DNA of 50,714 nt, taken from IMG/VR virus record IMGVR_UViG_3300032156_000016, positions 1-50,714 of that record; one strand, 5' to 3'. The stretch is from a virus. The notes beneath the pieces were generated by a model. It ran no database searches, was not told the DNA's origin, and saw nothing but the letters and a program-made list of their open reading frames with translations. Position 1 is the first letter of the stretch; every line of letters starts with the position of its first letter. Both the position numbers and the translations under genes were made by a program. Positions 1,766 to 50,440 of this stretch are shown here, piece after piece.

Positions 1766-2012
1766 ACTCTCCCATATTAGGAAATCTATTCAGTAATAAT
1801 TTGTATATTTCAGATTGTATCATTGTTCTCTTATCATCATGCGCTCTTCTAAATGCGCTAAGTATCGTATCTTTTCTTAATCCCAATAACCTTATTTCAC
1901 CTGCCATTGACGAACCATAACCATAAACTTCATTTTCAATACATATTACTTGCTCTCTGGTAAGCCAATAGTACTTTATATTTCTACCTTTCCTTAAATC
2001 TGTAGTACCCAT
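1704..2012 (-). CDS. HTH-like putative DNA-binding protein, 102 aa (paralogue of 2104-2349)
   Basis: It aligns end to end with the next upstream gene product. Shared positions are YY-LT--QV--I near the N-terminus, then E---L and T---AFRR, then Y--L--RF--MG--E. The central part looks like a helix-turn-helix of the lambda-repressor/Cro type, which would make both proteins small transcriptional regulators; this is inference from pattern, not a proven family match. The C-terminal extension (QKGSRAGRKGKLSLK) is basic and absent from the paralogue. It is preceded by AGAAAGG and a structured 71-nt element. Confidence 0.65.
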   Translation of the reverse strand: MGTTDLRKGRNIKYYWLTREQVICIENEVYGYGSSMAGEIRLLGLRKDTILSAFRRAHDDKRTMIQSEIYKLLLNRFPNMGECEFAQQKGSRAGRKGKLSLK

Positions 2013-2024
2013 ATTGCCTTTCTA

Positions 2025-2095
2025 TAAAGACGTAGGCTGCGAAACGCATTTAACCTAAATGAATAATTATATCTTTTCAGGCACCTACGTCTTTA
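2025..2095 (-). ncRNA. Intergenic RNA element closed by a 12-bp perfect helix
   Basis: Positions 2025-2036 (TAAAGACGTAGG) and 2084-2095 are perfectly complementary over 12 bp and enclose 47 nt. Inside is a tight hairpin TGCG-AAA-CGCA (2038-2048) and a second possible helix (CCTAAA/TTTCAGG region). No U-tract follows, so it is not a standard terminator. It lies between the two paralogous HTH-like genes, just upstream of the SD for the gene starting at 2012. It may be an RNA-processing site, a translational control element or a binding site for the HTH proteins. Confidence 0.55.
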
Positions 2096-2103
2096 CAAAA
2101 TAA

Positions 2104-2349
2104 CTACACTCTTTCGGATTTTCCCATACCGTGAAAAAATCTAATCAGTGGTTTATAAACAAACGTACTAATAGTAGTTTCTCCATTAGCATCTACTCGT
2201 CTAAATGCTTGAACAAATGTACTTGAATTTACTCTTGCTTTTTCTGCTAGTTCTAACATGGTCATTTCTTTTCTTTCCATTTGTTTTCTGATAAACATGA
2301 CTTGTTTTGCTGTAAGTACATAGTACTCTTCACCTGTATGCCTAGCCAT
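2104..2349 (-). CDS. HTH-like putative DNA-binding protein, 81 aa
   Basis: The product (MARHTGEEYYVLTAKQVMFI...) contains an HTH-like segment (TMLELAEKARVNSSTFVQAF) followed by a conserved tail shared with the product of 1704-2012. In phages such small proteins usually act as repressors or activators of early promoters. The start at ATG 2349 has an excellent SD (TAGGAGGATACA), the same leader used at 8191. It is the first gene left of the large palindromic region, so it is well placed to regulate or bind there (inference). Confidence 0.7.
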   Translation of the reverse strand: MARHTGEEYYVLTAKQVMFIRKQMERKEMTMLELAEKARVNSSTFVQAFRRVDANGETTISTFVYKPLIRFFHGMGKSERV

Positions 2350-2401
2350 TGTATCCTCCTACAGTTAAAAGGCTAGTAAGCGCGGGCCTTTCACCCTACC
2401 G

Positions 2402-2480
2402 GCGATTTGATCGCTACTGGAAGGGAAAGACAGAGGCTAGTTATACACTCGCTACCCAGACCTTCTAGCTTGTCCTTCCC
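2402..2480 (-). ncRNA. Structured leader of the HTH-like gene
   Basis: In leftward RNA sense, 2471-2480 pairs with 2423-2432 over 10 bp (one G-U). This encloses a second helix 2465-2469/2436-2440 (GCTAG/CTAGC). It is followed by a hairpin GCGAT-loop-ATCGC (2402-2414). Together they form a folded 5' leader ending about 50 nt before the start codon at 2349. It could control translation or RNA stability. Nothing else is seen in 2350-2401 beyond the SD and repeated CTAGCC words. Confidence 0.45.
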
Positions 2481-2764
2481 TAAACCCTATAAACCCTCTC
2501 TAAACCCTCTCAGAAGGGTTTACGTTGTATTAAACAAATCGTATCTTATGATCGCACGCGATCTTATAAGCTTGTGAAACATTTCACGGAAAACCCTTTT
2601 TACCCTTCCGGTTAGATCAAGGCTTAAAATTCGTGTTGATTCATTAAACTTATTCATTAAAACTACCTTATCTTTTTTATTGATATATGGTTACGCTTAC
2701 CGCAAGGGGGGGGGTATCGGACTGACCCCTTGCGGAAACAGATTCATTAGGCACTTTTCCAATC

Positions 2765-2825
2765 CTTTGCGGTTAAATAAGTTATCTGATTCATATTTAA
2801 TTAATTCCTTTTACCGCACAGGGTT
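2765..2825. repeat. 61-bp direct repeat, copy 1
   Basis: It matches 2884-2944 at 53 of 61 positions. The unit is itself a hairpin: TGCGGT (2768-2773) pairs with ACCGCA (2813-2818). The flanks ctttgcggttaaataagtta and taccgcacagggtt are identical in both copies, whereas the loop differs. Confidence 0.85.
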
Positions 2826-2883
2826 AGGGTTAAATGCTTATAACTCAACACTTTGGTTATATTATATAGAGTTACACTCAAGT

Positions 2884-2944
2884 CTTTGCGGTTAAATAAG
2901 TTACTCGTTCCATATTTAAGTAACTCCTTCTACCGCACAGGGTT
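2884..2944. repeat. 61-bp direct repeat, copy 2
   Basis: This is the second copy of the unit at 2765-2825. TGCGGT (2887-2892) pairs with ACCGCA (2932-2937), and an inner helix AGTTACT/AGTAACT is better formed than in copy 1. The conserved stems with a variable loop suggest selection on the hairpin or on stem sequence. Confidence 0.85.
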
Positions 2945-3222
2945 GTATTTTACTCTAATGAACATTCTTCCGCAAGGGGTACATCCCTGACCCCCCCCTT
3001 GCGGTTCTAATAAGTGATTGCAATATATACATTTAACCCTTGTTTAATGAATGAGTTTAATGAATAACCGTGTAAAAACATAGGGTATCTCCCCAGAAGG
3101 GTAAGAAGGGTTTTCTGTGCAACATTTCACAAGCTCCCAACGCTATACATGCACACTCTTTACCTCTCGATTAATACACCATAAACCCTTCTGAGAGGGT
3201 TTAGAGAGGGTTTAGTAGGGTT

Positions 3223-5907
3223 TCAGTCATGGCCGATTCCTTCTGGTATGTCTGAACCTGACCCCTCTATCTCATCGAGTATGTCTTGCGGTATCGGTTC
3301 CTCTTGTGGTTTCTCAATTATATGTTCATCACCAGTGATCGGATCGTAAATCTTTTCTCCATACATATCATTAAATTGTGCCGCAATTTCATTCGCCGTT
3401 GGCAAGAAGCCAGCGTAAAAATCTTTATCAATAGGTATTAATCGTGTTTCTTTTCCACGCCCACCGCCATGATCTAAGTAATCAAGATAGCCATGATCTC
3501 TTAATGGCTTCGACCATTTATAAATTTCTTCTTTCTTCATGTGCATTATTTCTGCTATGTCTTTATATGTTATTGAGAATTGTTCATTAGATTCTACTCT
3601 TTCATATTCATCTCCAAATAAAGTATTATTAACAGAAGGCTCATATTCTTTCCATTTATTTTTTTCCTCTATAATTCTATAATAAATATCTTTAGCCTTC
3701 GGTGGTAATTCATATAGAGTTTCTACAAGTATTTCGTTAAGAAGTATTCTAGCAATATTGTAATCGCACAAATTTGCTATTACAAATCTCCCTTCATCGG
3801 TGTCTATAATTTTTCTACCAGATTGAAACTGGTGGAAAATTGCTATAGTCTCAAGAATAGTAAGAAACCTAACTCTATCACGCATGACGCGGATTGGACT
3901 AGATGGAAATGCATCGAGTATTGATTTAACATATGGTATTCGTACTCTTAATCCCTTTTCTAAACAGCGTTGTGCATTATGAAATAATATAATCTCTTCC
4001 TTAGATAATCCTGCTGCTGTTCCTAAGTACTGTTCTTCGAGAACAACAGCAGTTTCCTGTACCTTCTCTGGACTTACCTGTACAAAGATAGAAAAGTTTC
4101 TCGTTTCATTCTCTGGGTTAATCTCAGGATTTGTAGTAGAAGTAATGAATCCACATGGGCCTTTAACTCTCTTAGTTACAGTTACCATTTCATTAGTGTC
4201 TGAATCTTTCTGCACTGTCATAATAATAAGATCGCCTTCACCTATCCCATCCTGTGCTTCCCTAATAGAATATTCTGAATCTTCAGTGCCATGCATTTCG
4301 CCAATTACTATCATCTTATGCATCAAATCATTCTCTCCAAGATAATAGAATGCTTTGGCGGTAGCTTCTTGAATCATAAATACGCCCTCTGGTGGAAAGA
4401 GGGTCATTGTTTTTTTCATTAAGTGGGTCTTTCCAGAAGATGATAAGCCTTTTACTATTGCTGATATTGGTTGTGGCATGATTCGTGATGTAAATATTAA
4501 GTACACTAAGATTTTATTAATGTCTTCTCCTACTACTTGTTGTTTTCTTAATGCTTCCTTTACTTTAAACAACAATCTACCAGAAGACAAGAACGAAATA
4601 GCCTCGCGTTTTTCATCCTCACTCATTACATATTCTTTTTTGGCTTCCTTGTCTTCCTGTTTTTCCTCCAGTTGTTGTGCGACTCCAATATTTAAATCAT
4701 TAAGTAAAGATTTTAATTGCTTCTTATCTATAGTATTATTTGTATCATACAAGTGAATAGCAAACGACGCTCTTGATCTTACATTTGAAAGATCAACAAC
4801 TCCACGATACTTAAAACCGCCCCTGTATATAACGTCAACCGTTGCACGAATTACTTGTTTTCTTTCTATTATATCTCTGACAGCAAATATTATATCATAA
4901 TCTTTTGGTACGCCATATCCAAAAAGAATTAAATTGTCACCCGATCTAATGTACATTAATTCTTTTTGTACGATACTTTTTCCAACTTGTTTCTCTACTA
5001 TAGAACCACCATTAAATAAATGATCTGATACATCATGTCCTTCTGGTAAATCAACTAAAGTAATTTCTATGTCATGTTCTATTAAGTATTCAATAGCTTT
5101 TGATTTACCAGTAATTCCAGCAGAGTCATTATCAAATATTAATACCGCCGTTTTACCTTTAAATTTTTCTGCTATTTTCTTTGGAAAATTTCCCGCCCCA
5201 AGAACAGCAATACATGAATCATATCCAGCAGTTTCCATTGCTAATGCATCTGGTATACCTTCACATACATAGATTTTTTTGGAACTCCCGCAAAGTAAAT
5301 CATAATTAAATACAGGGATATGCTTACCAAAATTATGTGTGTTAATAAATTTTGCTTCTGGTTTTAATCCAGTACATGATCTACCAGTTACGAATGTCCA
5401 TTGCTCTTGTATCTTTATGGGGAAAATGATACGTCTATAAAATTTGTTAGTATATTTTTCATTATCATAATTCATTAATCCAATCTGTACTGCTATATCT
5501 AAATCGGGATATTTTGGCCTGTCAATACTATGTCCTATACAATACTTCTTAATTATATCCATGTCTACATTACGATTAGTTGAGAAATATTCTTTTAATT
5601 CTTTAGTAATTACTAATGAGTCAATAAGTATTTGTATATACTCATTAAGTACTGTGCTATCTATTGATATTATTTCCTCTTCATACTCCTGAATATCTGC
5701 CGAATTTGCTATCTTTCCAGTTATTCCACAATGAAAACATTGAAACGCTCCCTTGCGTGTTCCTTTATTAACATAGAATTTTAGTTTATGTTTCTCTCTA
5801 CTGCCACATTCTTCATTAGGGCATAAGCATATAGATTCTGGCCCGAATCTTCCATGCTCCACCCTTTCTTCTTCTGTATCTCCGAAGCCAGGAACAATAT
5901 ATTTCAT
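3223..5907 (-). CDS. DNA primase-ATPase (zinc finger, TOPRIM, P-loop ATPase, C-terminal winged helix)
   Basis: This 894-residue protein is the likely replicative primase-helicase. The N-terminal DnaG-like zinc finger has C29-x4-C34 and C57-x2-C60. A TOPRIM domain follows, with EGIPDAL near residue 217 and FDNDSAG near 259. The C-terminal half has a Walker A (GLSSSGKTH, about 489) and a Walker B-like segment (MIVIGEMHG, about 535). A later NPENETRNFS segment is typical of the primase-linked AAA-type ATPases of phages and mobile elements; its NETR Arg is a probable trans-acting or sensor residue (family knowledge from memory). A C-terminal winged-helix-like region (ITYKDIAEIMHMKKEEIYKW) could bind DNA. 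It lies two bases downstream of the nuclease gene and reads into the palindromic origin-like block. Confidence 0.88.
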   Translation of the reverse strand: MKYIVPGFGDTEEERVEHGRFGPESICLCPNEECGSREKHKLKFYVNKGTRKGAFQCFHCGITGKIANSADIQEYEEEIISIDSTVLNEYIQILIDSLVITKELKEYFSTNRNVDMDIIKKYCIGHSIDRPKYPDLDIAVQIGLMNYDNEKYTNKFYRRIIFPIKIQEQWTFVTGRSCTGLKPEAKFINTHNFGKHIPVFNYDLLCGSSKKIYVCEGIPDALAMETAGYDSCIAVLGAGNFPKKIAEKFKGKTAVLIFDNDSAGITGKSKAIEYLIEHDIEITLVDLPEGHDVSDHLFNGGSIVEKQVGKSIVQKELMYIRSGDNLILFGYGVPKDYDIIFAVRDIIERKQVIRATVDVIYRGGFKYRGVVDLSNVRSRASFAIHLYDTNNTIDKKQLKSLLNDLNIGVAQQLEEKQEDKEAKKEYVMSEDEKREAISFLSSGRLLFKVKEALRKQQVVGEDINKILVYLIFTSRIMPQPISAIVKGLSSSGKTHLMKKTMTLFPPEGVFMIQEATAKAFYYLGENDLMHKMIVIGEMHGTEDSEYSIREAQDGIGEGDLIIMTVQKDSDTNEMVTVTKRVKGPCGFITSTTNPEINPENETRNFSIFVQVSPEKVQETAVVLEEQYLGTAAGLSKEEIILFHNAQRCLEKGLRVRIPYVKSILDAFPSSPIRVMRDRVRFLTILETIAIFHQFQSGRKIIDTDEGRFVIANLCDYNIARILLNEILVETLYELPPKAKDIYYRIIEEKNKWKEYEPSVNNTLFGDEYERVESNEQFSITYKDIAEIMHMKKEEIYKWSKPLRDHGYLDYLDHGGGRGKETRLIPIDKDFYAGFLPTANEIAAQFNDMYGEKIYDPITGDEHIIEKPQEEPIPQDILDEIEGSGSDIPEGIGHD

Positions 5908-12184: not shown

Positions 12185-12270
12185 TGGTGCCGGAGAAGAG
12201 ACTCGAACTCTTATAGCATTACTGCCGACAGATTTTAAGTCTGTTGTGTCTACCATTCCACCACTCCGGC
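12185..12270 (-). tRNA. tRNA-Leu(UAA), CCA encoded
   Basis: The minus strand folds into a full class II tRNA: acceptor GCCGGAG/CTCCGGC, D-arm GTG...CAC, anticodon stem ACAGA/TCTGT with loop CTTAAAA (anticodon TAA), a long variable arm, and a T-arm AAGAG-TTCGAGT-CTCTT. Discriminator A and CCA are encoded (12188-12185). It reads UUA, a codon very common in these AT-rich genes, so it probably supports late translation. It lies between a coiled-coil-like gene and a 79-residue gene in the leftward operon and is likely cut from that transcript. Confidence 0.95.
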
Positions 12271-15271: not shown

Positions 15272-15346
15272 TTACACGCTCCCCGTGTAATGGGTTATTG
15301 AAACGTATAGGCGCAACACTTACTAAAGTGTTACGCTTGCGTTTCA
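15272..15346 (-). promoter_or_regulatory. Hairpin-rich leader of the 161-aa gene
   Basis: TTACACG (15272-15278) and CGTGTAA (15284-15290) form a perfect 7-bp hairpin whose 5-nt loop is exactly the SD (GGGAG on the coding strand), one base before ATG 15270. Just upstream, TGAAACG (15299-15305) pairs with CGTTTCA (15340-15346) and encloses AACACTT-ACTA-AAGTGTT (15315-15332). Both hairpins would precede the start codon in the mRNA. Confidence 0.6.
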
Positions 15347-15352
15347 GTTATC

Positions 15353-16270
15353 AATGAACGTACTAACACCGAAGCGCTCACCGCTTCCGGCGTCGCGACG
15401 GGCTACTGCAAGCTGCATGCCAAGCGAAGCGACGATTGCGTAAGTGCTTTGATTGCAACGAGTTAAAGATGCCGGCATGGTTTGGCATGGCTTATGAATT
15501 GCGCTATAGTTGAAAAGCGCGCGTTCATTGGGTACGCAGCCCCAACGCTAAGTGACGTAACGACAACGGTTTAAGTTATACCGTATCTTTTACGCCCCTA
15601 GCATATACCGCGCCAATCGGGTTCGGGTCATTTGACCCAGGCGAGAGCGGCGCAACCGCTTTAATTGGAACGGGTTGCACTATACCGTAACTTATAGACA
15701 GCAACGATCCACTTGCGTCATTTTACCCATGGGCCAAGTGCTTTGTTTACAATGAGTTGACGATTGGTGTGGGTGCTTTGACCCAAACGGGACGTATCGG
15801 CATGAGATATGCGCCGAGTTAAGTGGAGTGGTGACAAGCAGTTACGGTATATCGGAAGGATTACGACGACGCCGTTTCGTGGGTGCTTTGACCCATTACG
15901 GTATGTCATAAGATATGCGATAAAGACTGATCGCCCGCGCCTGAGCGCAAAGAATACGCGATGATACTTACTAATCACAGCAACGCCATATGTGACAACG
16001 ACTTACAACGACTTCGCGCCTATACGTCACATTAATTATTGCGTCATAGTTTAACCTGCTGTCGCATATAGCGTTGGGTGCGTAGGCCCAGGGGCGATCT
16101 CACACATGGCGACACTCTCGGCGCACCGCTGGTTGAATATACACACCAAAGATAGTTTTGCATTTGAAGTTATTTCTTTACGTTTCTTTATATTCTTTTT
16201 TATTCTATTATTAAAACAAACAAACAGTGCTTATAAGCGCATATAAGCGAATCGTAGTTTCTTTATATAA
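15353..16270. promoter_or_regulatory. Divergent hub with iterated palindromes, candidate operator cluster or origin
   Basis: No gene is supported here. Repeats seen: the TGGGT-N6-ACCCA family at 15529-15544 (variant), 15624-15639, 15770-15785, 15880-15895 and 16075-16090 (variant); TTACGGTATA or its complement at 15577-15586, 15681-15690, 15842-15851 and 15896-15905; AGATATGCG near 15805 and 15911; and a longer direct repeat AAGTGCTTTG...GAGTT at 15443-15465 and 15736-15758. The region is GC-rich to about 16.13 kb, then AT-rich. It separates the two transcription arms, so operators, an origin or a partition site are all possible. Confidence 0.65.
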
Positions 16271-20119: not shown

Positions 20120-22375
20120 ATGGCCTTTCCCGCAGTATCAGGAACTCCTGCTGAGGGAGCCGTTACTTCGGCAGGCACTAGCCATGCCGTTACGTTTACG
20201 CAGACGACGGGGCATCTTGTCGTTATCGTAATCGCAACGGCGGTCACTGTCGAGGTGGTCAGCACCGATGAGGTATTCACTAATCTATTTCCAACCGTAG
20301 GGAATACTCACCGTCTCCATATCTTTTATCGGTATTTAACCGGCTCCGAGGGCGGGACGCACACATTTACGACGGCAAGCACGAAGTCGGCGTGGATTTC
20401 GTTTAACATTACGGGAGCGGATACGGTATTGACGCCTATGGTCGGCACCGTTGCAACTGCGACAAGTAATGCTCCAGATTCTCCGTCATTATCTCCAACA
20501 GGAGGTAGTAAAGATTATCTCTGGATCGCGTGTTTTCAGCAAAACGGCGAAGAAGACGATGACAACACTTGGCAGAATAATACACCGACTGGAACAGGCG
20601 GTGGGTCGTATTCTCCCGCGCTAGGTTATCAGAAAACTACGGGTATCGCTTCAGCCGCTACTACTAATACCCAGGTATGCGCGGCGTATCGTCAATATAC
20701 GGGCGCAACCGAAGACCCGTCAGCATGGAGTACCGATCAATCATTAGCTTGGCGGGCGCAGACAATTGCAATTTATCCCGAAACTCTTATTACTATTTCA
20801 GCACAAAGTATTCCACTTGCAGGATCAGTACCATCATCTACTATTACTGCTCCAGGCACGGCAACTATTAATACTGCTGCTATTTCATTAGCAGGGTCGA
20901 TACCATCTTCTGTTGTTACTGTTCCTGGCGTAGCGACAGTTACAACTACCGCTCTTCCACTAACAGGGTCAATATTATCATCTGTTATTACTACTCCAGG
21001 TATAGCTACGGTTAACGCTGCTGCTATTTCATTAGCAGGGTCGATACCATCTTCTATTATTACCGTCCCAGGAACAGCCACAATAACATTAGATGATTTA
21101 TCTCTAGTAAGTACAATAAATAATATTGCTATATGGATTACGGAGACTATTAGTTTAAATAGTTTGTCTCTAGCGTCTTCTGTAGAAAATTCTGTTATTA
21201 CAACACCAGGAATAGCGACGATAACATTAAGTAATATTTCACTTATAGGATCAATACCAAGTTCTTCAATAACTGTTCCTGGTGTTGCCACTATGACTCT
21301 TAGCGAATTAACCGCCGCGCTTGCTATTCAGAATACTATTGTTTCTGTCCCAGGAGTGGCAAGTATTCCTTTGAATTCTCTTAGTTTAAGTAGCATTGTC
21401 GGAAATATAACTATAGTTCCAATTGGTACAGTTACAATAAACCTTAATGGATTGTCATTAATATCTAGTATTGAATCAGTTATGGTAACTCCACTTGGAA
21501 CCGCAACGGTAACATTAAGTGCGTTATCTATTGGTAGCGCGGTGTATACGATAACAATTGAAATTGGTGGCGGTGAATTAGTTGAGATATCTCTTGATCA
21601 ACTTGATCTTACTTCTTCTATAAATAACTTAATTGTTAGTGTTCCTGGTACTGCAACAATACAATTAACTGGATTGATTGCTAGTTTATCACTAGAAGAT
21701 ATAAGCGTTGTTGGTGTTGGTAGTACAATTATAAGTCTTGATGAATTGTCTTTAATTGCTGATTGTAGAAATATAGCAATATATAGTGTTGGTACTGCAA
21801 TTATAGGATTAAATACTCTTGATTTAATATCTTCAGTAGAAACTATTACTGTTGCGTTAACATACTTACCATTATCTGAAAGATTACCAGCCACCACAGA
21901 AGCAATAATGCCGATTGGGGACATTTCTAAAGAATGGAATATTGCAGTTCCGAATTCAGATCATTTTTCTAACATTAATACGGGAGTAGAAGGCCCAAGC
22001 GCGCCCGATGATGCTTCTTATAATATGACTAATGCTGCTAATAAAACAGATTCTTACGTCTTAAGTGCGGGCATGAGTGGAAAAACAAGAATAGATGAAT
22101 TTACCTGGCAGTTTAGATATGCTGGAGAAGTTATTAATAAAGCCCCAGGTCTTACAATAGAACTTTGGGTAAAAGGAATATTAAGAGCTACATCTTCTGT
22201 TGATGTTAGTACGAATGGTCTTACTGATTATGTCAATGGTCAGGTATCATGGACTGGTTTGAACATAAGCGGAATAGATTGGTATGATGGGCCTAGAATA
22301 ATTAAGCACATAAGTACTTGGAATGTTCCACATGAGCTTGATGAACCAGAAGTATATTATGTTCCGGTGGAATAA
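20120..22375 (+). CDS. Fibre-like protein with about fifteen 24-residue repeats, 751 aa
   Basis: Three parts are visible. Residues 1 to about 215 form a beta-rich domain encoded by GC-richer DNA (SGTPAEGAVTSAGTSHAVTF ... SAWSTDQSLAWRAQTIAIYP). Residues about 218-590 consist of roughly fifteen 24-residue units of the type TITL--LSL-SSI----I-VPGTA. The C-terminal part (about 600-751) is a non-repeated domain (DEFTWQFRYAGEV). Regular short beta repeats suggest a solenoid or stacked beta fibre, as in receptor-binding or head-fibre proteins. Overlap of the stop with the next ATG shows co-translation. Confidence 0.7.
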   Translation: MAFPAVSGTPAEGAVTSAGTSHAVTFTQTTGHLVVIVIATAVTVEVVSTDEVFTNLFPTVGNTHRLHIFYRYLTGSEGGTHTFTTASTKSAWISFNITGADTVLTPMVGTVATATSNAPDSPSLSPTGGSKDYLWIACFQQNGEEDDDNTWQNNTPTGTGGGSYSPALGYQKTTGIASAATTNTQVCAAYRQYTGATEDPSAWSTDQSLAWRAQTIAIYPETLITISAQSIPLAGSVPSSTITAPGTATINTAAISLAGSIPSSVVTVPGVATVTTTALPLTGSILSSVITTPGIATVNAAAISLAGSIPSSIITVPGTATITLDDLSLVSTINNIAIWITETISLNSLSLASSVENSVITTPGIATITLSNISLIGSIPSSSITVPGVATMTLSELTAALAIQNTIVSVPGVASIPLNSLSLSSIVGNITIVPIGTVTINLNGLSLISSIESVMVTPLGTATVTLSALSIGSAVYTITIEIGGGELVEISLDQLDLTSSINNLIVSVPGTATIQLTGLIASLSLEDISVVGVGSTIISLDELSLIADCRNIAIYSVGTAIIGLNTLDLISSVETITVALTYLPLSERLPATTEAIMPIGDISKEWNIAVPNSDHFSNINTGVEGPSAPDDASYNMTNAANKTDSYVLSAGMSGKTRIDEFTWQFRYAGEVINKAPGLTIELWVKGILRATSSVDVSTNGLTDYVNGQVSWTGLNISGIDWYDGPRIIKHISTWNVPHELDEPEVYYVPVE

Positions 22376-48789: not shown

Positions 48790-49226
48790 GGCTTGGCCTC
48801 CGGTTCTTTTCCTGTTCCCATGCACTGGTAGCAGTTCATTGTTCCAAGTTGACTAGATACGGTTAGCTTGCCGTTACAAACTCGACACGGTTTCTCTTCC
48901 TCTCCATGTGGTTGAAGTTTCTGGCACTCGCGGGAGGCGGCGACGGTTTGGCGCAGGTGGTCGTATGATGCTTGTTTCGCCACTCCACAACGTATTGACT
49001 CAATAAGCGACAGCGTCGCCCTCAACACCGGCTCCACGTCGGCGCGGTAGGCGGCGAAGGCTTGCTCAATCTCGCGCTTCTCGATCTCGGCATCATTCTG
49101 ATCGCGGCAGTAGATGGAGCAGTAGCCGTCGATGCGAAACTCCTCGTCCTTGCATCCTTCCCTCGCGCACAAACGTACGCCGTTGACCATGCGAATCGGC
49201 CAACCGAAGTCGTCTCTATCGTTCAT
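48786..49226 (-). CDS. Zinc-knuckle phage protein, 146 aa
   Basis: The product starts MNDRDDFGWPIRMVNGVRLC and has N-terminal Cys positions (CAREGCKDEEFRIDGYCSIYC), suggesting one metal site. A helical middle follows (YRADVEPVLRATLSLIESIR). A C-terminal CRVCNGKLTVSSQLGTMNCYQC forms a second CxxC pair. Its first 41 codons are duplicated exactly at the window start. ATG overlaps the previous stop. It is probably a conserved accessory protein; its function is unknown. Confidence 0.7.
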   Translation of the reverse strand: MNDRDDFGWPIRMVNGVRLCAREGCKDEEFRIDGYCSIYCRDQNDAEIEKREIEQAFAAYRADVEPVLRATLSLIESIRCGVAKQASYDHLRQTVAASRECQKLQPHGEEEKPCRVCNGKLTVSSQLGTMNCYQCMGTGKEPEAKP

Positions 49227-49228
49227 GG
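49102..49228. repeat. 127-bp exact direct repeat, right copy
   Basis: Identical to 1-127. It lies inside the 5' part of the 146-residue gene and extends two bases beyond its ATG. Upstream (leftward sense) the contexts differ: here a 50-residue gene with a poly-Asp end, at the left copy a continuing ORF. A further short similarity (GACGCGGCAAA-GAGAA-CC) persists beyond the mismatch. Confidence 0.95.
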
Positions 49229-49375
49229 CTTCTCTTTTGCCGCGTCGTCATCATCGTCGTCGTCATTGGGTCGTTCTCGTTTCCGAACGTCTCTGTCGGT
49301 ATCTCTTCCGCTCACAGCGTCAGCAATTGCCTTCCCGGGATTGCTTAACAATTTCCATAGCCACCATTCTCCCAT
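49223..49375 (-). CDS. Small acidic-tailed protein, 50 aa
   Basis: ATG 49375 (SD AAAGGAG) to TGA 49223 encodes MGEWWLWKLLSNPGKAIADA, then a charged part ending in a run of seven Asp and AAKEKP. The amphipathic/aromatic start could attach to membrane. Starts and stops overlap both neighbours. Poly-Asp ends can mimic DNA, but that is speculation here. Confidence 0.6.
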   Translation of the reverse strand: MGEWWLWKLLSNPGKAIADAVSGRDTDRDVRKRERPNDDDDDDDAAKEKP

Positions 49376-50002: not shown

Positions 50003-50440
50003 TTAGCTCTCCCCACGCTTCCAGCCGTGAACCTCGCAGATGATCTTCCGCTTGAGCGAGGCGATCTTGTCACCGTCTCGTTGAATCGGCGGGTAAAGGG
50101 CCACAAGCCACAGCCGGTCGCCTTTCCATTGACTCGGATTGAACGTTCCGTGAAGAGCGCGCGGAGTGCAAATCTCTAGTGGCCCAGCAATCTCCTGCAC
50201 GCTTCCGGGTATCACGGGCACGCCCTTTCCGCCGTTGCAGGCTTTCCCTTCGGCGTCCGAGAACCAGAACGCATACTCAGCGTCGGTGTCGGTTTCTCCG
50301 CGTTCCCTTGCTAAGTGCTCTGCAAAAGTTTTATAGCCGTCGCCGTAGCCGTCGCCGGAGCCGTCGCCGTCGCCGGAGCCGTAGCCGGAGCCGGAGCCGT
50401 AGCCGTAGCCGTAGCCGTAGCCGGAGATTTCCGCTCTCAT
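50003..50440 (-). CDS. YG/DG-repeat protein with a conserved C-terminal domain, 145 aa
   Basis: Residues about 6-36 are a dipeptide-type repeat (YGYGYGYGSGSGYGSGDGDG), encoded by hexamer repeats. The rest has LEICTPRALHGTFNPSQWKG, then LWLVALYPPIQRDGDKIASL and KRKIICEVHGW. I recall that domain pattern (CT-RALH ... W-GDR-W-VAL ... D K-ASLKR-I) from a family of phage proteins of unknown function (possibly DUF7666). The start overlaps the upstream stop (ATGA). Confidence 0.62.
   Translation of the reverse strand: MRAEISGYGYGYGYGSGSGYGSGDGDGSGDGYGDGYKTFAEHLARERGETDTDAEYAFWFSDAEGKACNGGKGVPVIPGSVQEIAGPLEICTPRALHGTFNPSQWKGDRLWLVALYPPIQRDGDKIASLKRKIICEVHGWKRGES
50336..50425 (-). repeat. GCCGNN hexanucleotide tandem repeat
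   Basis: About fifteen imperfect 6-bp units (gccgta, gccgtc, gccgga) encode alternating Gly with Tyr, Ser or Asp in the gene at 50003-50440. Slippage could change the number of units in steps of two residues without breaking the frame. Confidence 0.8.

Follow-up and report, generated by a model that had tools for sequence, protein, structure and literature searches.

A mirror-symmetric repeat array downstream of a primase gene is a probable replication origin in a virus of about 50 kb

Introduction

Several mobile elements keep the site at which their replication begins next to the gene for the protein that acts on it. The Rep protein of SaPI elements is a self-loading initiator helicase that binds, through its C-terminal domain and apparently as two hexamers, an iteron origin located directly downstream of its own gene, and Cch2 of SCCmec binds the region directly downstream of its helicase gene, a putative origin (PMC7581432). 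In the plasmid pRN1, a stem-loop 3' of the primase-helicase-winged-helix gene is needed for replication, and a similar stem-loop is found in phage BIP-1 (PMC4234260). The ssi sites of RSF1010, ssiA and ssiB, are 40-nt hairpins, one on each strand (PMC4434180). A site of another kind, the minimal target of the PY54 protelomerase, is a 42-bp perfect palindrome (PMC3540006).

The locus described here is a mirror-symmetric array of repeats in a virus record from IMG/VR (50,714 bases, 37% G+C), which is called the window below. The array adjoins the gene for an 894-aa primase and is probably the replication origin of the virus. A first-pass annotation, made from the sequence alone, had offered a replication origin, a single-strand initiation zone and a terminal or resolution site as the main options for this region, and each is weighed below at the point where the relevant evidence is given.

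Results

Symmetry of the array

The array is a non-coding stretch of about 740 bp (2481-3223) bounded on one side by the primase stop codon (3223) and on the other by a small helix-turn-helix (HTH) gene that starts at 2349. Neither neighbouring gene runs through it, and the open reading frames inside it are short and lie on the opposite strand, in keeping with the annotation that no coding frame uses the region. Alignment of positions 2460-3240 with their own reverse complement gives a score of 269, compared with 25.7+-4.6 (maximum 47) for 200 dinucleotide shuffles and 40 for the best region of the window not overlapping it, so that the annotated mirror symmetry beside the primase gene is real. 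When all possible centres in the genome were scanned, the dyad at 2852 had 200 of 371 ungapped mirror matches (genome mean 98.5, s.d. 9.5). There are four arm pairs, as annotated, but their centre is one base from the position first given (2851). It is exactly 2852.0 for pairs A, B and C and within one base of 2852 for pair D, the offset arising because the G run of D differs by one base.

Blocks A, B and C are 84-96% identical between the arms, whereas the spacers that separate the blocks are equally long in both arms (35, 21 and ~35 bp) but match, ungapped, at only 10/35, 5/21 and 11/36 positions (24-31%), which is chance level. Since spacers would have stayed similar under gene conversion or after a recent duplication, we infer from this sequence pattern that the blocks are under selection; their spacing is probably selected as well. 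The two arms serve as each other's control, and comparing them already reveals which bases and spacings are important.

Table 1. Features of the array and its flanking genes (window coordinates)
Feature	Position	Strand	Description
Small HTH protein gene	2104..2349	-	Weak match to HTH_35 and the phrog_769 repressor; downstream of array
A, left outer block	2481..2533		AAACCCT iterons, three direct (2482, 2491, 2502) and one inverted (2515)
Inverted iteron of A	2515		Forms 8-bp dyad TAAACCCT..AGGGTTTA
B, left	2569..2617	+	TTGTGAAACATTTCACGGAAAACCCTT; dyad and iterons; 41/49 against mirrored B'
C, left	2639..2661	+	Two ATTCATTAAA units; 22/23 against mirrored C'
D, left	2699..2750	+	10-bp stem CCGCAAGGGG/CCCCTTGCGG (2700-2735), unrelated loop, then TTCATTAG
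E1, direct repeat	2760..2825	+	Imperfect dyad GCGGTTAAATAAGTTA..TTTTACCGC
Mirror centre	2826..2878		Dyad at 2852, no palindrome of its own
E2, direct repeat	2879..2944	+	Repeats E1 in direct orientation
D', right	2955..3005	-	Mirrors D; same 10-bp stem (2970-3004)
C', right	3043..3065	-	Mirrors C
B', right	3087..3135	-	Mirrors B
A', right outer block	3171..3223		Mirrors A; iterons at 3183, 3196, 3207 and 3217
Primase gene, putative initiator, 894 aa	3223..5907	-	DNAG_N and Toprim (Pfam); predicted MCM-like AAA+ domain and winged helix

Blocks of the array

The outer blocks carry AAACCCT, the commonest heptamer of the array, which contains 10 of its 16 genome copies. The A arms are identical at 42 of 44 positions when mirrored (2490-2533/3171-3214), and A' terminates at the primase stop codon. 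The B block, TTGTGAAACATTTCACGGAAAACCCTTTTTACCC, has a GTGAA..TTCAC dyad, and one compensatory pair was seen between its arms (CGGAA/TTCCG versus CAGAA/TTCTG). Mirrored with the one-base offset, D is conserved in its 5' arm (15/16) and in its 3' arm and tail (22/28) but not in its loop (3/11). The two central direct repeats of the first-pass annotation are present, although they measure 66 bp rather than 61 bp and each is an imperfect dyad; E1 and E2 are 85% identical and flank the mirror centre. The most A+T-rich 40-bp stretch of the array (85%, in the top 0.3% of the genome) falls within E1.

A relative with a mirrored region in the same place

A query with the terminase, and no other query, identified the relative IMGVR_UViG_3300028920_000008 (50,071 bp), whose terminase and primase are 50% and 47% identical to those of the window; repeating the terminase search as an alignment returned the same contig. 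Searches for close relatives by DNA, by the primase alone, by a primase alignment in viral contigs and by exact E-repeat and iteron patterns returned none, and no cultured relative of the lineage was found in this analysis. About 20 genes match between the window and the relative in the same order, and because one of them runs across the relative's contig ends, that genome is probably circular.

The first-pass annotation had suggested looking for the array in related genomes, and this relative keeps a mirrored region 3' of its primase, ~0.4 kb past the stop codon and beyond two short open reading frames. Its arms (27821-27879/28143-28201) are 59 bp long with 54/59 mirror matches, compared with 32 for the next best arms at that distance anywhere in the relative's genome, and no other palindrome in that genome scores as high (93, next 65). 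The symmetry is simpler than in the window, consisting of a single 59-bp arm pair with near-random mirror identity elsewhere, and no equivalents of blocks C, D and E were recognised in it. The B element TTGTGAAnnnTTnCACnGAAAACCnTT is common to both arrays; in the form TTGTGAA...TT.CAC.GAAAACC.TT it has five copies across the two viruses, three of them in the relative. The commonest array heptamers, found independently, are one base apart: AAACCCT in the window and AAACCGT in the relative, where 8 of 18 genome copies lie in the array. This one-base shift between related viruses invites a test of initiator-site co-evolution.

The relative bears directly on two other explanations. Long terminal-like inverted repeats could mark the chance insertion of a MITE or fold-back element, a mobile element of palindromic form, but the relative has its own array of different sequence in the same place, the window has no second copy, the arm patterns were not found elsewhere in viral contigs, and the outer flanks have neither a mirror (8/41 matches) nor an obvious target duplication, all of which makes an insertion scarcely credible. 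Nested inverted repeats around a single dyad also recall the telomere- or dimer-resolution sites targeted by the N15 and PY54 protelomerases. A palindrome at the dyad of the PY54 kind is, however, absent from both genomes, with 5/10 to 14/40 mirror matches in the window, where no perfect inverted repeat nearby exceeds 5 bp per arm, and 2/10 to 8/40 in the relative. No protelomerase-like match was found among the open reading frames scanned, and gene content suggests a circular contig in the relative. The terminal or resolution site of the first-pass annotation is therefore highly improbable, and telomere resolution was rejected for want of a central palindrome.

Hairpins and folding

The annotation had described most arms as hairpins. 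This holds for D, whose stem is present twice, and for A, whose arms hold an 8-bp hairpin, but B pairs well in its left copy only and C is not a hairpin. Local folding (span <=70 nt) of the array halves gave z-scores of -2.2 to -4.1, compared with values down to -5.7 elsewhere in the genome, so that neither strand folds in excess of the genome background. Selection on structure, which the annotation had suggested, is weakly supported by the D stems kept with differing loops and by the compensatory pair in B, whereas two observations speak against it: the blocks shared between arms and between viruses take in non-hairpin sequence, and the folding is at background level. Hairpin function is not specially supported. 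Double-stranded protein-binding sites are the simpler reading of the blocks.

A primase hairpin site of the RSF1010 ssi type is possible for D. In a single-strand initiation zone, the D hairpins would be exposed in single-stranded form and recognised by the primase, as ssiA and ssiB are by RepB'; the identical stems in the two arms, the one hairpin per strand and orientation that the mirror provides (as in the RSF1010 pair) and the adjoining primase gene are all consistent with this. However, no counterpart of the D stem was found in the relative, and a scan of viral contigs with the D-stem pattern returned six hairpins only, all unrelated. The folding result weighs against such a zone on either strand, and the window primase is of the DnaG type whereas RepB' is of the archaeo-eukaryotic type. 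A zone of this kind, which would be a sub-function inside an origin, is considered unlikely.

The hairpins might alternatively belong to a structured non-coding RNA encoded between the primase and HTH genes, given that the D hairpins are strong and that gene orientations would have the array transcribed with the leftward operon if that operon is continuous. The two strands fold alike, though, the array has no Rfam match, and a long-range mirror with random spacers is unlike a local RNA fold; an RNA is accordingly very improbable.

The primase and the neighbouring HTH gene

The N-terminal half of the 894-aa protein matches DnaG structures in the PDB, and its primase domain (DNAG_N plus Toprim) is of the DnaG type and not of the archaeo-eukaryotic type. 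The C-terminal 470 residues were modelled by AlphaFold2 with 39 homologues (mean pLDDT 79, pTM 0.77). Foldseek matched the model best to MCM helicases (E 2.4e-9, TM-score ~0.44) and also to PriRep1 (2.4e-5), and the model ends in a family-conserved helix-helix-wing unit, a winged helix at model residues 357-401. On this evidence the protein is a DnaG-type primase to which an AAA+ domain and then a winged helix are joined, the AAA+ domain being like MCM helicases in fold and not necessarily in activity.

Plasmids and bacterial genomes commonly encode homologues of the primase (25-33% identity), frequently beside HTH and tyrosine recombinase genes. A comparable array downstream of the primase gene was found in 0 of 63 testable distant homologues, so the family as a whole does not combine this protein with such an array. 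In plasmids and bacterial contigs, the C-terminal AAA+/winged-helix region is shared by a broad family of CHC2/Toprim primases, whose genes often adjoin those for an HTH protein and a XerC-like recombinase (for example in Lonsdalea 11-kb and Leptospira 13-kb plasmids); this is probably a family of self-replicating mobile elements.

Across the array from the primase, the HTH gene starts about 130 bp away, and the B dyad is typical of dimeric HTH sites, so the dyads could be repressor sites in an operator or regulatory array serving the downstream HTH repressor or early transcription. Yet the relative retains an array without any match to the HTH gene, so the array goes with the primase rather than with the HTH gene. 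Positions 1900-3400 contain no sigma-70-like promoter (shuffles give 4), and the size and mirror symmetry of the array are far beyond those of an operator. An operator role is consequently improbable.

Other features of the window

The region at 15300-16200, which separates the leftward genes from the rightward genes, is repeat-rich, G+C-rich and apparently non-coding; it has TTACGGTATA repeats and dyads such as GTGGGTGCTTTGACCCA, present as two exact copies and two variants. It is a candidate divergent promoter/operator region or alternative origin, its repeat-rich non-coding part at ~15.3-16.1 kb being the second candidate origin of the window. A 145-bp repeat with 98.6% identity occurs at 1-145 and 49102-49246, in a G+C-rich stretch 1.6 kb from the right end, and is not a terminal redundancy. 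Near the right contig end, a six-base TAGCCG-like tandem repeat has 15 copies (50334-50423) in a region of ~56% G+C, compared with 37% for the genome. Tandem repeats of 72 bp (3.3 copies, 20811-21088) lie within the 751-aa open reading frame at 20120-22375. The window has a single tRNA-Leu (taa) gene (12185-12270), and no tRNA gene was found in the relative.

Discussion

The array is probably the replication origin of a ~50-kb, probably circular dsDNA virus, placed directly 3' of its own initiator gene. This first-pass option gains support because a mirrored, iteron-bearing region sits 3' of the primase in a relative whose primase is 47% identical and because the primase has a predicted AAA+ domain and winged helix. 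Against it count the single relative (n=1) with its simpler symmetry, the failure to recognise C, D and E there, the 0/63 homologues with an array, and the second candidate origin at ~15.3-16.1 kb. A DnaA-dependent origin was rejected, as DnaA boxes (TTWTNCACA) are absent from the array; the window has two matches. The GC skew of the window tracks gene orientation and cannot place the origin.

In the proposed mechanism, the 894-aa protein would be the initiator, combining a DnaG-type primase, an AAA+ helicase-like domain and a C-terminal winged helix. In each arm, the AAACCCT iterons and the B element would be binding sites for the winged helices. Through the base-exact mirror, the two initiator assemblies would face opposite ways, one to each side of the A+T-rich E repeats. 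The duplex would then open near E, two hexamers would depart in opposite directions, and the fused primase would prime both forks, leading to bidirectional theta replication with host polymerase. We infer all three of the elements on which this scheme depends, namely the origin role, binding by the 894-aa protein and the two-hexamer geometry.

A more specific proposal is tentative and rather doubtful: that a base-exact mirror in the origin of a bacterial virus loads a pair of oppositely oriented MCM-like hexamers, each carrying a DnaG-type primase of its own as a fusion. If true, bidirectional initiation by one protein at one site would be a prokaryotic counterpart of double-hexamer loading in which the symmetry is written in the DNA. 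If the scheme is right, one fused primase-helicase-binder and one symmetric site make up a compact, testable initiation module.

Comparison with known systems

The arrangement found in SaPI, SCCmec and pRN1-type systems recurs in the window, with repeats just 3' of the gene, multiple iterons and, in the model, an AAA+ domain and a winged helix. The likeness to SaPI and SCCmec lies in a non-coding region with iterons that directly follows the initiator-helicase gene and in a C-terminal DNA-binding domain, which in the window is the predicted winged helix; SaPI primases are archaeo-eukaryotic, however, whereas that of the window is of the DnaG type (CHC2/Toprim) and fused. With pRN1, pRN2 and BIP-1 the window shares a palindromic structure 3' of a primase-helicase-winged-helix gene, and among these elements too the sequence diverges while the arrangement stays (PMC4234260). 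The pRN1 and pRN2 structure is a single ~100-bp stem-loop beside a gene for an archaeo-eukaryotic prim-pol with an SF3 helicase, whereas the window has nested blocks over 742 bp with no continuous stem, beside a gene for a DnaG-type primase. Like the array, the oriV of RSF1010 (ssiA/ssiB) has iterons and opposite-strand hairpins, which in RSF1010 serve a plasmid primase (PMC4434180, PMC4234260). It relies on three separate Rep proteins, and RepB' is a primase of another type than the window's.

Phage P4, with its ori1 and crr sites and its alpha protein, has a fused primase-helicase-origin binder, iterons and long repeats, but its crr is distant from ori1 and its primase differs in type from that of the window. 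Set beside SaPI and SCCmec, the window alone has a 742-bp base-exact mirror built of five block types.
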